A stretch of DNA of 64,000 nt from an uncultured Verrucomicrobiaceae bacterium (lineage in GTDB: Bacteria; Verrucomicrobiota; Verrucomicrobiia; Verrucomicrobiales; Verrucomicrobiaceae). The position numbers and the translations under genes were made by a program. The notes beneath the pieces were generated by a model. That model worked only from the letters and a program-made list of their open reading frames with translations. It searched no databases and was not told where the DNA came from. Shown in pieces: positions 3,056-42,563 of the stretch (position 1 is its first letter; each line of letters begins with the position of its first letter). Location: contig CALMTT010000401.1 of the NCBI GenBank assembly GCA_937872615.1, positions 1-64,000 of the forward strand, in the 5' to 3' direction.

Positions 3056-3508
3056 CTACTCGCGTGCCCGCGAGTCGATCACAATGGTAACGGGTCCGTC
3101 GTTGATAAGAGCCACCTTCATGTCCGCACCGAAGATGCCGCGCCCGACAGGCCTGCCGGTGTCTGTTTCGAGAGCGCTGATGAATTGCTCATAAAGCGGG
3201 ATGGCCTGCTCCGGCCGTGCGGCACGGATGAAGCTGGGGCGGTTTCCCTTTTTCGTGCTGGCATGCAGCGTGAACTGGCTCACGACGAGCAATCCACCCG
3301 CGATGTCCTTCACGCTGAGGTTCATCTTTCCCTCCGCATCGCTGAAGATGCGCATCTGCGTGACCTTTGGCACCAGCCACGCGATGTCCTCTGCGGTGTC
3401 ATTATGCTCGATGCCGCAGAGGATCATCAAACCGCTGCCGATGCGACCGGTGACGGTGCCATCGACGGTCACGGAGGCCTCGGAGACGCGTTGGATGACG
3501 AGGCGCAT
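3056..3508 (-). CDS. dtd: D-aminoacyl-tRNA deacylase
   Basis: A 150-residue cytoplasmic proofreading enzyme that hydrolyses D-aminoacyl-tRNAs (and Gly-tRNA-Ala). It is full length for the DTD1 family, with [17 protein letters not shown] at the N-terminus, the substrate-binding [17 protein letters not shown] motif in the middle and the Gly-cisPro signature NDGPVTI near the C-terminus. It lies 9 bp downstream of the cpYpsA-like gene on the same strand, so the two probably share a transcript, followed by the CBS gene. Confidence 0.96.
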
Positions 3509-8069: not shown

Positions 8070-9242
8070 TCAGGGGATCGGATCAATGCTCTCAAACACC
8101 GCGCCGCCGAGAAGACGGTCGCCGTCGTAGAGGGCGCAGATTTGTCCGGGGGTGAGAGCACGCTGCGGCTCGTGGTAGGTCAGCTCTGCGCGGCCATCAC
8201 CGAGCGGTTTGAAGTCAGCGAGGCCGGCAGGGCAGCGGTAGCGGGGCTGTGCGTTCAACACGCGGGCGGTGTCGAGAAGCTCGCCGGTGCTGGAAATGGA
8301 ATGTAACACGGCATGGCGCGCCCAAAGCAGCGGCGTGTCCTCGTTTTCGATGGCGACGACGAGTTCGTTGGTCTCCGGCCGCTTCGCGACGACGACGTAA
8401 GCCTGCTTGTGGATCGGACTGGCGACGCCGTGGCCTTTTCGCTGGCCGAGGGTGTAAAGATGCAGGCCGCGATGCTCGCCCCGCACTTTGCCTTCGAGAT
8501 CGACAATCGGTCCAGGTTTGTCCGGCACGAAGGTGCGCAGGAAGTCCTCCATCTTCACCTGGCCGATGAAGCAGATGCCCTGGCTGTCTTTTTTCTCGGC
8601 TGTTTTGAGTCCAAACTGTCGCGCGAGATCCCGCAGCTCCGGTTTGAGCAGATGGCCGATGGGAAAGTGCGCGATGCGGACCTGCTCGGGCCGCATCATC
8701 GCGAGGAAGTAGGTTTGGTCTTTGTTTGGATCGAGGCCGCGGTGGATTTGCGGAATGAAAGCGGCTTTGCGGAGCAAGTGCTCAGTGCTGAGTGCTGAGT
8801 GCTGAGTTTCAGAGGACTGAGCACTAAGAACTGAGCACTTGGCGGAAGACTCCACATCCACACGCCGCGCATAATGCCCCGTCGCGATGCCTTCGAAGCC
8901 ATTCTCCTGCGCCCAATCCCACAGGACGCCGAACTTCATCTCGCGATTGCACATCACGTCGGGATTCGGCGTGATGCCGCTTTGGTAGCCTTCGAGGAGG
9001 TATTTCACGACCTTCTCGCGGTATTCGGTCATGAGATTGACGACGCGAAAGGGGATGCCGAGCTGCTCGGCGACGGCACGGGCGTCCTCGATGTCCTCCT
9101 CCCACGGGCAATGGCCGATGATGTTCTCCTCGTTGATCCAGTTCTTCATGTACACGCCGTGGACCTCATGTCCGTCACGCACGAGGACCGCAGCGGCCAC
9201 GCTGCTGTCCACTCCGCCCGACATGGCTGCGAGAATCTTCAT
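8070..9242 (-). CDS. mnmA: tRNA-specific 2-thiouridylase MnmA, with a palindromic insert
   Basis: A 390-residue ATP-dependent enzyme that thiolates U34 of tRNA-Lys, -Glu and -Gln using sulfur relayed to its catalytic cysteine. Seen: PP-loop MSGGVDSSVAAAVL near the start, first catalytic Cys in PDVMCNREMKFG, ATGHYARR, LDPNKDQTYFLAM, and the second Cys in QGICFIG. Between ATGHYARRVDVE and LLRKAAF, where relatives have a few residues, there is an extra Ser/Ala/Gln-rich loop of about 25 residues encoded by a palindromic repeat (8776-8840). The frame is kept, so the protein is probably functional. ATG 9242 gives the normal family N-terminus MKILAAMSGG. Confidence 0.95.
   Translation of the reverse strand: MKILAAMSGGVDSSVAAAVLVRDGHEVHGVYMKNWINEENIIGHCPWEEDIEDARAVAEQLGIPFRVVNLMTEYREKVVKYLLEGYQSGITPNPDVMCNREMKFGVLWDWAQENGFEGIATGHYARRVDVESSAKCSVLSAQSSETQHSALSTEHLLRKAAFIPQIHRGLDPNKDQTYFLAMMRPEQVRIAHFPIGHLLKPELRDLARQFGLKTAEKKDSQGICFIGQVKMEDFLRTFVPDKPGPIVDLEGKVRGEHRGLHLYTLGQRKGHGVASPIHKQAYVVVAKRPETNELVVAIENEDTPLLWARHAVLHSISSTGELLDTARVLNAQPRYRCPAGLADFKPLGDGRAELTYHEPQRALTPGQICALYDGDRLLGGAVFESIDPIP
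8776..8840. repeat. Palindromic TGCTCAGT element inside mnmA
   Basis: A 65-bp block built from alternating copies of AGTGCTCAG/AGTGCTGAG and their complements. Its outer ends are a perfect 10-bp inverted repeat (8776-8785 and 8831-8840). It lies in frame in a variable loop of mnmA and adds a low-complexity peptide. The same words recur at 22161-22220 in a gene-free region of this window, which shows this is a dispersed repeat and not mnmA sequence. Confidence 0.82.
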
Positions 9243-9281
9243 CTGCGCATGTTTCCGCGGGCTGCGGCGGGCGTCAATAAA

Positions 9282-9313
9282 GAGGCGCATGCCCGTCGCC
9301 GGACATGCGCCTC
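9282..9313 (-). terminator. Rho-independent terminator downstream of the DUF5684 gene
   Basis: A perfect 10-bp stem (9282-9291 with 9304-9313) around a 12-nt loop. Read on the minus strand it is followed by TTTATT. It lies just after the stop of the minus-strand membrane-protein gene and before mnmA, so it separates the two transcription units. Confidence 0.75.
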
Positions 9314-39688: not shown

Positions 39689-39813
39689 GGACAGCCGGAT
39701 GGTGGGCGGTGTTGCCCGCACGGCAAGAGCCACCTGTGTGTGTTAGCATAACATGCAGGCCCGTGATATTCCTCGCCGCCACGGCCGTCTTTCTCTGCCA
39801 TCCTGCACACCGC

Positions 39814-40746
39814 ATGAAACGCTTCTTCGACTGGTTCAACAATCTCTACCCCGTTTGGCTCGTGAGCCTCGCGGTCATCGCGTTTTTCAAGCCGCCGGTG
39901 ATGCTGTGGTTCAATTCCGACTGGGTCTTCTGGTCGCTCGCGGCCTCGATGCTTGGAATGGGGCTCACGCTGAGCTTGGATGACTTCAAAGCCATCGGCC
40001 GCATGCCGGGAAGCGTGGCGCTGGGCTTCATCGCTCAATACACGATCATGCCGCTGGCCGGGTGGGCCACGGCGAAGATGCTCAACTTGGAGCCAGGCCT
40101 CGCGGTTGGCATTATTTTGGTGGCAAGTTGCCCCGGCGGCATGGCATCGAACATGATCAGCTACCTCGCCCGGGCGAATGTGGCGCTGTCTGTCGTGCTG
40201 ACGCTGTTCTCGACCATCCTTGCGTTCTTTTTCACACCCATGTGGACCAGCACGCTCGCGGGACAGTATGTGCCGGTGGACGCTGTGAAACTGGCACTGG
40301 ATGCGTGCAAGCTCACCCTCGCTCCCGTGGTGCTTGGCGTGCTCATTCGCTGGAAACTGCCTCGAACGGCTGATCAAATTGGTGCCTGCGGACCCACGGT
40401 GGCGGTGCTCGCCTTTACCTGCGTCACCGGCGGCATCGTGGCCGCCAGCGCGGCGGCCATCGCGAAGAACTTTGGTGTCCTGGCACTCGCGGCGTTCGTG
40501 CTGCACGTCATCGGGTTCAGCGTGGGCTATGTGTTGCCGAAGTTGCTTCGCTATCCCGAGTCCATCGCCCGCACGGTCAGCATCGAGGTGGGCATGCAAA
40601 ACGGCGGCATGGCCGCGTCGCTCGCGCGGATGCATTTTGCCAGCATGCCGCTGGCCGCGGCAGCCGGTGTGTTCAGTGGCGTGATGCAAAACATCATCGG
40701 CGGCATCGCCGCGGCGATCTGGAAGCGTCGTCCACCTTCCGCATGA
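39814..40746 (+). CDS. Bile acid:sodium symporter family (BASS) transporter
   Basis: A 310-residue membrane protein with about ten helices. It shows SLDDFKAIGRMPGSVALGFIAQYTIMPLAGW and VASCPGGMASNMISYLARAN, which is the conserved Na+-binding region of the BASS fold, and IEVGMQNGGMAASLARMHF in the second half. BASS proteins import bile acids, pyruvate, pantoate or other organic acids. The next gene starts inside its stop codon (ATGA), so it forms an operon with a kinase and an aldolase, which suggests a carboxylate or sugar-acid substrate. Confidence 0.9.
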   Translation: MKRFFDWFNNLYPVWLVSLAVIAFFKPPVMLWFNSDWVFWSLAASMLGMGLTLSLDDFKAIGRMPGSVALGFIAQYTIMPLAGWATAKMLNLEPGLAVGIILVASCPGGMASNMISYLARANVALSVVLTLFSTILAFFFTPMWTSTLAGQYVPVDAVKLALDACKLTLAPVVLGVLIRWKLPRTADQIGACGPTVAVLAFTCVTGGIVAASAAAIAKNFGVLALAAFVLHVIGFSVGYVLPKLLRYPESIARTVSIEVGMQNGGMAASLARMHFASMPLAAAAGVFSGVMQNIIGGIAAAIWKRRPPSA

Positions 40747-41846
40747 GCCGTCGCGATATCTATTATTGGAAATGTGACCGTCCCGCGGCTTTTCATGGCA
40801 CGCAGGTTCGTGGTGAAGCGGATGCTGCAATCACGCGTGAACTCGAACAGGAGCTTTGCAGGCACTTTGACACCTCAAACGTCGTTTTGCAGCCCGGCAG
40901 TGGTCAGGGCAATCATCTCACTTGGACTGCCGAGGTGGATGGAAAGGCTCTTTTCATCCGTGTGGAGAACGGACCGGAAAAGGATGGGCACTTGGCGGTG
41001 GAGAGCACGGTCCTGGATTGGGTGCGCGAAGCAGGGGTGCGCACGCCACGCGTGTTTGGCTGCGATGCGACGCGGAGTCGCGTGCCGTTTGCGTGGCAGG
41101 CTTTGGAACGAATCTCCGTGCCCGATTTGAATCAGTGGTTCAAGCAGGGGACGCTGGAGGTGCCGAAGGTGGCGTTTGAGATCGGCGCGGCGGTGGCGAA
41201 GTGGCAGGAGATCACGTTCGAGGGCTTTGGGGTATTAGAGTGGTCCGCACAGTCCTCTGTGCGGAACGAGGGCCAAGGAACGTCCGAACCGCACAGAGGA
41301 CTGTGCGGACCACATTTTCGCTACGCGGACTATTTCCACCTCCGACTTGATGAGCATCTGCGCTTTTTGACGACGCGGGGCTTCTTGGTGAATGCGGATG
41401 AGATTCGAGCGGAAATCGAAAGCCATCGTCCGCTGCTCGATCTCGCTCCGGGATGCCTTGTTCATAAGGATCTGGCGCTTTGGAACATCCTCGGCACCGA
41501 GCGGGAGATTTATGACTTCATTGACTTTGATGACAGTATTGCGGGTGATTCGATGGATGATCTGTCGTTGTTGGCATGCTTTCATGACGCGGCGTTTTTG
41601 CAGCGGTCCTTCGAGGGGTATCAAAGTGTGCGTCGACTGCCGGAGGAGCATCTGCGGCGTTTTTGGCTGCACTTGCTGCGGAACATGATCGTGAAATCAG
41701 TGATCCGCGTCGGCGCGGGCTACTTTGAGCGCGATGGGGGCTTCTTTTTGAATTCGCCCGGCACGAATCTCCGCCAGATCACGCTTTCAAAGCTCGCCAC
41801 GGCCTTGCGGGGCTTGCGAGAGGGCAGCGGGCTCGACATTCTCTGA
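40743..41846 (+). CDS. APH-fold phosphotransferase, with palindromic insert
   Basis: A 367-residue kinase of the aminoglycoside-phosphotransferase/choline-kinase superfamily. Motifs: catalytic LVHKDLALWNIL at about 239, with Lys in place of the usual Gly of HGD, and the metal-binding FIDFDDSIAGDSMDDLS at about 258. The N-terminal YYWKCDRPAAFHGT is unusual. A 25-residue segment near 167-191 (WSAQSSVRNEGQGTSEPHRG...) is encoded by a perfect inverted repeat (41240-41313) and is absent from a normal APH N-lobe/C-lobe junction. Starts in the stop of the BASS gene; aldolase follows after 3 bp. Substrate unknown, probably the imported acid or its derivative. Confidence 0.8.
   Translation: MSRRDIYYWKCDRPAAFHGTQVRGEADAAITRELEQELCRHFDTSNVVLQPGSGQGNHLTWTAEVDGKALFIRVENGPEKDGHLAVESTVLDWVREAGVRTPRVFGCDATRSRVPFAWQALERISVPDLNQWFKQGTLEVPKVAFEIGAAVAKWQEITFEGFGVLEWSAQSSVRNEGQGTSEPHRGLCGPHFRYADYFHLRLDEHLRFLTTRGFLVNADEIRAEIESHRPLLDLAPGCLVHKDLALWNILGTEREIYDFIDFDDSIAGDSMDDLSLLACFHDAAFLQRSFEGYQSVRRLPEEHLRRFWLHLLRNMIVKSVIRVGAGYFERDGGFFLNSPGTNLRQITLSKLATALRGLREGSGLDIL
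41240..41313. repeat. In-frame palindromic element in the BASS-operon kinase
   Basis: Perfect 25-bp inverted repeats (41240-41264 and 41289-41313) around a 24-bp spacer. Each arm contains its own hairpin: CCGCACAG-tcct-CTGTGCGG and its complement. The block lies inside the kinase frame and adds a Ser/Gly/Pro-rich peptide. The dyad within a dyad could form a cruciform or double stem-loop. Confidence 0.85.
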
Positions 41847-41849
41847 ACC

Positions 41850-42563
41850 ATGAAAACACACATCGGCACTTTTATCTCCATCGGATCACCAGCGGTCACG
41901 GAACTCGCTGCGGAATGCGGCTATGACTGGGTGCTGATCGATCTCGAGCATGGTTGCGAGTCCGAGGCCGCGCTGCCGAACCAACTGCGTGCCCTGCGTG
42001 GCAGCCAAACGCTGGCGATCGTGCGCGTGAGTGCGCCGCATGCCGATTTGATCGGTCGCGTGCTCGATTGGGGCGCGGATGGCATCATGGTGCCGCATGT
42101 GGATACCGTGGCGCAGGCGGAGCATTGCGTGAAAGCGGCCACGTATCCGCCGAAGGGCATCCGCGGGGTTTCACGAACGGTGCGGGCTTATGGTTATGGC
42201 ATGCGTTTGCCTGGCGATGAGATGCCGAAACCGATTATTTTGGCTCAAATCGAGACGGCGGAAGGTGTTTCGAATGCGGAGGCCATCGCTGCGGTGGAGG
42301 GCATTGATGCCTTGTTCATCGGTCCGGCGGATTTGAGCTATGATTTGAAGGCAAGGAAGTCGCCACGCAGTTACGACGAGTGTCTTGATACGGTCGCGAA
42401 GGCCGCAAAGGCTCACGGCAAGGGCTGCGGCATTCTCGTTCGCCATGCTGACGACAAGGAAATGCTCAAAGCGCTCGGCTTGAACTGGCTCGCGATGGAT
42501 TCCGACCTTTCGCTCGTGCGCGAGGGCTTCAAGCGGAACCTCGAAACAGCACGGCGTTGGTGA
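41850..42563 (+). CDS. HpcH/HpaI-family class II aldolase
   Basis: A 237-residue metal-dependent aldolase of the HpcH/HpaI/citrate-lyase family, which cleaves 2-keto-3-deoxy or 4-hydroxy-2-oxo acids to pyruvate and an aldehyde. Seen: GYDWVLIDLEHG near residue 25, GADGIMVPHVDT near 73, the metal-ligand Glu of AQIETAEGVSNAEAI and Asp of FIGPADLSYDL. Third gene of the BASS transporter/kinase/aldolase operon. The physiological substrate is not known, but the set suggests uptake and cleavage of a 2-oxo acid. Confidence 0.88.
   Translation: MKTHIGTFISIGSPAVTELAAECGYDWVLIDLEHGCESEAALPNQLRALRGSQTLAIVRVSAPHADLIGRVLDWGADGIMVPHVDTVAQAEHCVKAATYPPKGIRGVSRTVRAYGYGMRLPGDEMPKPIILAQIETAEGVSNAEAIAAVEGIDALFIGPADLSYDLKARKSPRSYDECLDTVAKAAKAHGKGCGILVRHADDKEMLKALGLNWLAMDSDLSLVREGFKRNLETARRW

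Follow-up and report, generated by a model that had tools for sequence, protein, structure and literature searches.

A putative REPIN in frame within the kinase genes of Prosthecobacter-like bacteria, with arms conserved as DNA

The RPEs of Rickettsia are the classic case of in-frame palindromic inserts. Two of these families, RPE-4 and RPE-6, have been counted among the CGTC-tagged REPs by Di Nocera 2013 (PMC3733652), who also described in-frame REP dimers that encode 20 to 30 amino acids, including those of a verrucomicrobium. The verrucomicrobium Opitutus terrae is enriched in GTAG-20 elements, most of which carry GTGG in place of GTAG (PMC3733652). REP doublets are better conserved than singlets (Bertels & Rainey 2011, PMC3116915), and binding and cleavage of tagged single-stranded REPs by RAYT has been shown for the E. 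coli, S. maltophilia, and Marinomonas systems (PMC8266576). Studies of why REPINs persist over millions of years, whether through host benefit, selfish turnover, or conversion, have mostly dealt with intergenic copies, which offer no neutral clock.

The DNA considered here (the window) is a stretch of 64,000 nucleotides from an uncultured Verrucomicrobiaceae bacterium. A first-pass annotation had reported a perfect 25-bp nested inverted repeat at positions 41240 to 41313, and these coordinates proved exact: two arms of 25 nt, 100% complementary to each other and each with its own hairpin, are separated by 24 nt. Each arm consists of the tag GTGG, a T, and a perfect 8-bp stem with a 4-nt loop (CCGCACAG-TCCT-CTGTGCGG), and thus carries the GTAG/GTRG-type tag of a REP. 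In the left REP (41240 to 41264, plus strand), the tag occupies 41240 to 41243 and the stem halves, 41245 to 41252 and 41257 to 41264, enclose the loop TCCT at 41253 to 41256. The right REP (41289 to 41313, minus strand) is an exact inverted copy. Between them lies the spacer AACGAGGGCCAAGGAACGTCCGAA (41265 to 41288), which diverges among species and is closest to the spacers found at the same site in relatives; like the element as a whole, it is assigned no strand. The flanking sequence TTAGAG may be part of the element.

Several analyses set this structure apart from chance. A 20-mer of the arm, with up to 3 mismatches allowed, occurs at 2 places in the window, namely the two arms, versus 0.03 expected, a count reached by none of 100 shuffles. 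As single-stranded DNA the element folds with an energy of -36.2 kcal/mol (z = -9.75), a stability that 200 shuffles all failed to reach. Across 12 REP types of relatives, 5 of 7 stem pairs are changed on both sides and none is broken; these types were hand-picked as distinct, which makes the figures an illustration of covariation and not a sampling of it. The REP contains no stop codon in any of its three forward frames. No Rfam family matches the element at its gathering score; the only hits were spurious microRNA models, far below their thresholds.

A search for the arm across the genome assembly (744 contigs, 6.8 Mb, estimated contamination 7.4%), as the first-pass annotation had proposed, yielded about 23 REP/REPIN loci with exact and relaxed patterns, counts that are based on pattern searches plus individually retrieved stretches. 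The pattern AGTGGTCCGC..GCGG has 36 matches, about 33 of them true REPs with the full tag, and when the relaxed pattern was reversed as a control, 0 forward matches and 2 reverse ones turned up. Most loci are inverted doublets of 61 to 101 nt, the usual unit of a REPIN, and about 18 of the 23 lie outside clearly interrupted genes, in keeping with the mostly extragenic location of REPINs. One copy, at the end of contig C120, is possibly an assembly artefact; its right flank recurs at kdpD. On contig C296, a RAYT gene is situated between two identical REPINs at 2475-2547 and 3216-3289. Its 216-residue product matches Y1_Tnp and contains, within MPNHVHLLV, the HUH motif (HVH); the best NCBIfam model is REP_Tyr_transpos, at 58 bits, under the cut-off of 80. 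Among relatives, the REPs that flank RAYT genes change tag and stem with the RAYT subgroup: those of near relatives are mostly GTGG-TCCGCACA.. REPs, and GTAG-CC.. types are found beside other RAYTs. One relative carries six tandem REPs at an exact spacing of 66 bp, adjoining a RAYT (G049:C166:71229-71584). The REPs and RAYT of the genome under study are a REPIN/RAYT system, and the element at 41240 to 41313 is almost certainly a REPIN, a name and a RAYT link that go beyond the first-pass annotation.

The gene that holds the REPIN (40743 to 41846, plus strand) is an ORF of 367 residues whose reading frame stays open across the element. Pfam APH (PF01636, E 3.5e-12) covers residues 50 to 294, that is, both sides of the insert. 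Upstream, an SBF/BASS (bile acid:sodium symporter family) transporter gene (39709 to 40746, plus strand; PF01758) overlaps the kinase start by 4 nt, and downstream, an HpcH/HpaI aldolase gene (41850 to 42563, plus strand; PF03328) begins 3 nt past the kinase stop. The earlier placement of the repeat in the kinase of a BASS operon was therefore right. Residues 167 to 190 of the kinase are encoded by the REPIN (41241 to 41312, plus strand) and read WSAQSSVRNEGQGTSEPHRGLCGP, whereas insert-free relatives have VLDExLRGYRxxYADYF at the same place.

The kinase was modelled with AlphaFold2 as an APH-like protein (mean pLDDT 87.3, pTM 0.88), and the prediction of the loop that the first-pass annotation had called for gave pLDDT values below 50 for residues 174 to 183, inside the REPIN-encoded stretch, which is thus predicted to be a disordered loop. 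A Foldseek comparison with the PDB placed the model nearest to APH(4), fructosamine-3-kinase, and homoserine kinase, a match that does not fix the substrate; a sequence search of solved structures returned weak APH matches only. The kinase REPIN appears, from its sequence, to be translated as a floppy loop of about 25 residues (WSAQSSVR...), extra to the fold as had been supposed; orthologues with an empty site are short there. The added residues are most likely tolerated by the kinase rather than needed, because they are predicted to be disordered, because the loop that holds them varies in length among orthologues, and because other repeat-like inserts occur at this loop in two relatives.

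Five REPIN copies in this genome are in frame within long genes. Besides the APH-fold kinase of the window, the hosts are KdpD (C296), a KdpD-like kinase (C466), a DEAD-box helicase (C385), and a beta-helix protein (C249), and 4 of the 5 copies are entered in the frame WSAQSSVR. The two copies in divergent KdpD-type kinases (L020, G000:C296, and L023, G000:C466) sit at the same hairpin turn of the HATPase domain, which in insert-free relatives is short (SATLRDQQLRLIIRD). They may have been inherited from a common source or may represent two insertions at one permissive site; C466 could also be a contaminant contig. The right arm in KdpD is read in another frame (RTEDCADH). The kdp operon (L020, G000:C296:1-6184) contains three REPINs and one RAYT in the order kdpB, kdpC, REPIN, RAYT, REPIN, and kdpD with its in-frame REPIN, and the TAA stop codon of kdpC abuts the first of these REPINs.

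An element of a different kind lies in the window at 8775 to 8841, within mnmA (8070 to 9290, minus strand). It too is a dispersed inverted repeat that sits in frame in a gene of this genome, belonging to a CAAGTGCTCAGTGCTGAGTGCTGAGTGCT.. / AAGTGCTCAGTGCTGAGTGCT.. family and encoding about SAKCSVLSAQSSETQHSALSTEHL, with 19 genome matches at 3 or fewer mismatches, including heptamer arrays (AGTGCTC repeated). However, its sequence, with heptamer-like repeats, is unrelated to that of the kinase REPIN, and neither a GTGG nor a GTAG tag was seen in it. The view that the kinase element is a second in-frame family besides that of mnmA is borne out by this comparison.

Orthologues of the kinase, the closest named ones of which come from Verrucomicrobiaceae/Prosthecobacter metagenome assemblies, occur in three states: empty, with the short sequence given above; filled, with two REPs that are intact or almost intact; and filled with eroded remnants. 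The same insertion, intact or eroded, is present in about 15 relatives, and intact and eroded copies have the same left junction. Other relatives have the short empty loop, and the comparison with orthologues, another of the checks proposed at the outset, showed the segment to be absent from distant ones. Together with the further copies in the genome, this upholds the first-pass reading of a dispersed in-frame element. On the tree of the kinase gene outside the insert, some empty sites are nested among filled ones (6 Fitch changes, with weak supports), so that in some lineages the site may have recombined locally or received an insertion more than once. In two relatives, L183 (G022:C578) and L185 (G043:C193), the same loop contains a different repeat-like insert of GTGTGGCGACAGCCCGCCCG-type sequence, which suggests that elements of more than one family may land there. 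A nested case is L041 / L180 (G051:C80), where the left REP of the kinase REPIN is itself split by a further in-frame insert (CCGGAGCGCAGCGGAG..GCGAGCGTAGCGAGG).

The arms are conserved as DNA. Among eight filled kinase orthologues, third-position identity is 94% in the arms versus 57% in the rest of the gene, where the maximum over 326 windows of equal size is 72%. At codons with an invariant amino acid, synonymous change is seen at 1 of 9 in the arms versus 163 of 199 elsewhere in the kinase (Fisher 1.8e-5). A similar pattern holds for the kdpD copy shared with one relative, where synonymous differences number 1 of 15 in the arms and 214 of 601 elsewhere (p = 0.025). Conservation is less strict where one REP is damaged. 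Four related species have lost the core of the left REP through an in-frame deletion of 12 nt, and their right REPs are 78% identical, versus 98% in intact doublets, even though third-position identity of the kinase genes is 72% in these species versus 57% in the intact group. This comparison represents one clade and gives limited support; it agrees, at one orthologous site, with the report that doublets are the better conserved (PMC3116915).

Other observations bear on how the arms are kept. The genome of one eroded filled site (G015, site L116, whose gene sequence equals that of L040) has no REPs that could be found and no RAYT at the threshold used, which fits decay of the kinase REPIN when the system is missing. 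On the other hand, several genomes whose kinase REPIN is intact yielded no RAYT of the subgroup closest to that of C296 (at least 60% identity), albeit in incomplete assemblies, and this counts against a simple RAYT-driven account. The common arm variants, a TCCCCT loop and the CTCAG..CTGAG stem of L034, correspond to REP types that occur elsewhere in the genomes concerned, as would be expected if the REP pool converted or replaced the arms. With its altered stem, L034 retains the short hairpin while the long one suffers; selection on the short hairpin would lead to this pattern just as conversion would.

The first-pass annotation had left a choice between an element that is recent and one that is under selection to keep its structure. 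The former is contradicted by the presence of the insertion in many species whose synonymous sites are near saturation, while the notion that the arms are actively kept, be it by selection or by homogenisation, has held up. Arms could still look alike through youth if the loop were a hot spot that received a fresh REPIN in each species. Such recurrence would suit a permissive loop that has taken up other dispersed elements in L183 and L185 and an extra insert in L041/L180, it would suit the empty sites nested among filled ones, and the flanking TTAGAG, if it belongs to the element, could be counted in its favour. Yet the spacers speak otherwise. At sites with both REPs, the best match of a kinase spacer is always the kinase spacer of another species (0.64-0.96), above the best sampled REPIN elsewhere (0.55-0.68), in a comparison by regular expression that misses some degenerate REPINs. 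This kinship argues for one old insertion, as does the left junction common to intact and eroded copies. Furthermore, the spacer and adjacent codons diverge between species at an ordinary level, an order that fresh insertions of one family would not produce; had the whole region been exchanged recently, such divergence would not be expected either. Recurrent recent insertion is thus unlikely, and the kinase insertion is very probably old and shared; the sequences point to a REPIN that entered the kinase gene, in frame, in a common ancestor of several Prosthecobacter-like bacteria.

What has held the arms constant since then is less clear-cut. If the insert had been domesticated as a functional kinase loop, with conservation of the DNA as a by-product, one would expect what is seen at the protein level, where WSAQSSVR and PHRGLCGP are nearly invariant in intact relatives. 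But the arms are frozen at synonymous sites as well (above), the peptide is lost or altered in several relatives whose gene is intact, the loop is predicted to be disordered, and the arms are conserved in KdpD even though the right arm is read there in a different frame; selection for the amino acids is therefore improbable. Quasipalindrome correction, in which the arms of a palindrome repair each other by template switching in replication, is an established mutation process, and it would keep arms matched with no selection, as in the perfectly complementary copy of the window. It would, however, let the two arms drift jointly, and the sequence is instead constant; none of 13 variant positions among 9 orthologous copies is common to both arms, and the paired change in L034 sits within one REP hairpin and equals a REP type found elsewhere in that genome. 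Self-correction of this kind is, if anything, slightly less probable than selection for the peptide. Least probable of all, and very much so, is an RNA device in the operon mRNA, such as an attenuator, an RNase stop, or a regulatory hairpin. The hairpin is strong, and REPs in mRNA have been proposed to act on termination and transcript stability (PMC3733652), but no Rfam family matches at its gathering score (above), the same element is found in unrelated genes and at intergenic sites, and the kinase site is empty in many relatives.

The account preferred here, an old RAYT-type REPIN insertion with a tolerated loop and upkeep at the level of the doublet, is highly likely as a whole. By analogy with described systems, the REPIN is thought to be mobilised as single-stranded DNA by RAYT, a HUH/Y1 transposase, which presumably also made the insertion, in frame, into the permissive kinase loop. 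The kinase would tolerate the 25 or so added residues as a disordered surface loop, and insertions with a frameshift or a damaging effect on the protein would have been lost. At sites with both REPs, point mutations have accumulated in the spacer and flanks, and the REPs themselves have been nearly fixed as DNA. A sequence-specific process would keep the doublet, either by correcting it towards the REP pool or through selection on the REPIN itself; its persistence would not be owed to the amino acids. Such upkeep of the arms at the level of the doublet is modestly favoured. The stronger proposition is evenly poised: that even in a translated gene, and through near-saturating synonymous divergence, REP doublets are fixed as DNA by a sequence-specific process that depends on the presence of two REPs, be it conversion from the REP pool or selection for some function of the host or of RAYT, and decay after the loss of either REP.

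The interest of the locus lies in its clock. Where many species carry a REPIN at identical codons of one orthologous gene, neutral sites lie on both sides of it and adjacent to it, making the question of why REPINs stay conserved testable at one site. The kinase REPIN would also be, to judge from its reading frame, an example of a mobile element that adds translated sequence to proteins at tolerant loops. In the literature searched, no comparison was found of orthologous intragenic REPINs with synonymous sites, or of a doublet with a truncated copy in this way. REP pairs in frame within genes had been described before; the possible novelty is an apparently translated REPIN that is orthologous across species and comes with synonymous sites as its own clock.

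The element resembles the GTAG-type REP dimers and REPINs associated with RAYT in its tagged palindromic REPs, which are dispersed in inverted pairs, in the REP-flanked RAYT gene, in the better conservation of doublets than singlets, and in the in-frame location of some copies within ORFs, where 20 to 30 amino acids are encoded. It differs in its stem, CCGCACAG, in its Prosthecobacter-like hosts, and in that one orthologous gene is filled across many species, so that a rate can be read against host synonymous sites. With RPE-1, RPE-4, and RPE-6 it shares the in-frame palindromic insertion into unrelated protein genes (here a kinase, two KdpD-type kinases, a helicase, and a beta-helix protein). 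Unlike the Rickettsia elements, however, it has the tag GTGG rather than the CGTC of RPE-4/6, another stem, and a linked RAYT. The kinase element would work like an RPE without being a member of an RPE family.
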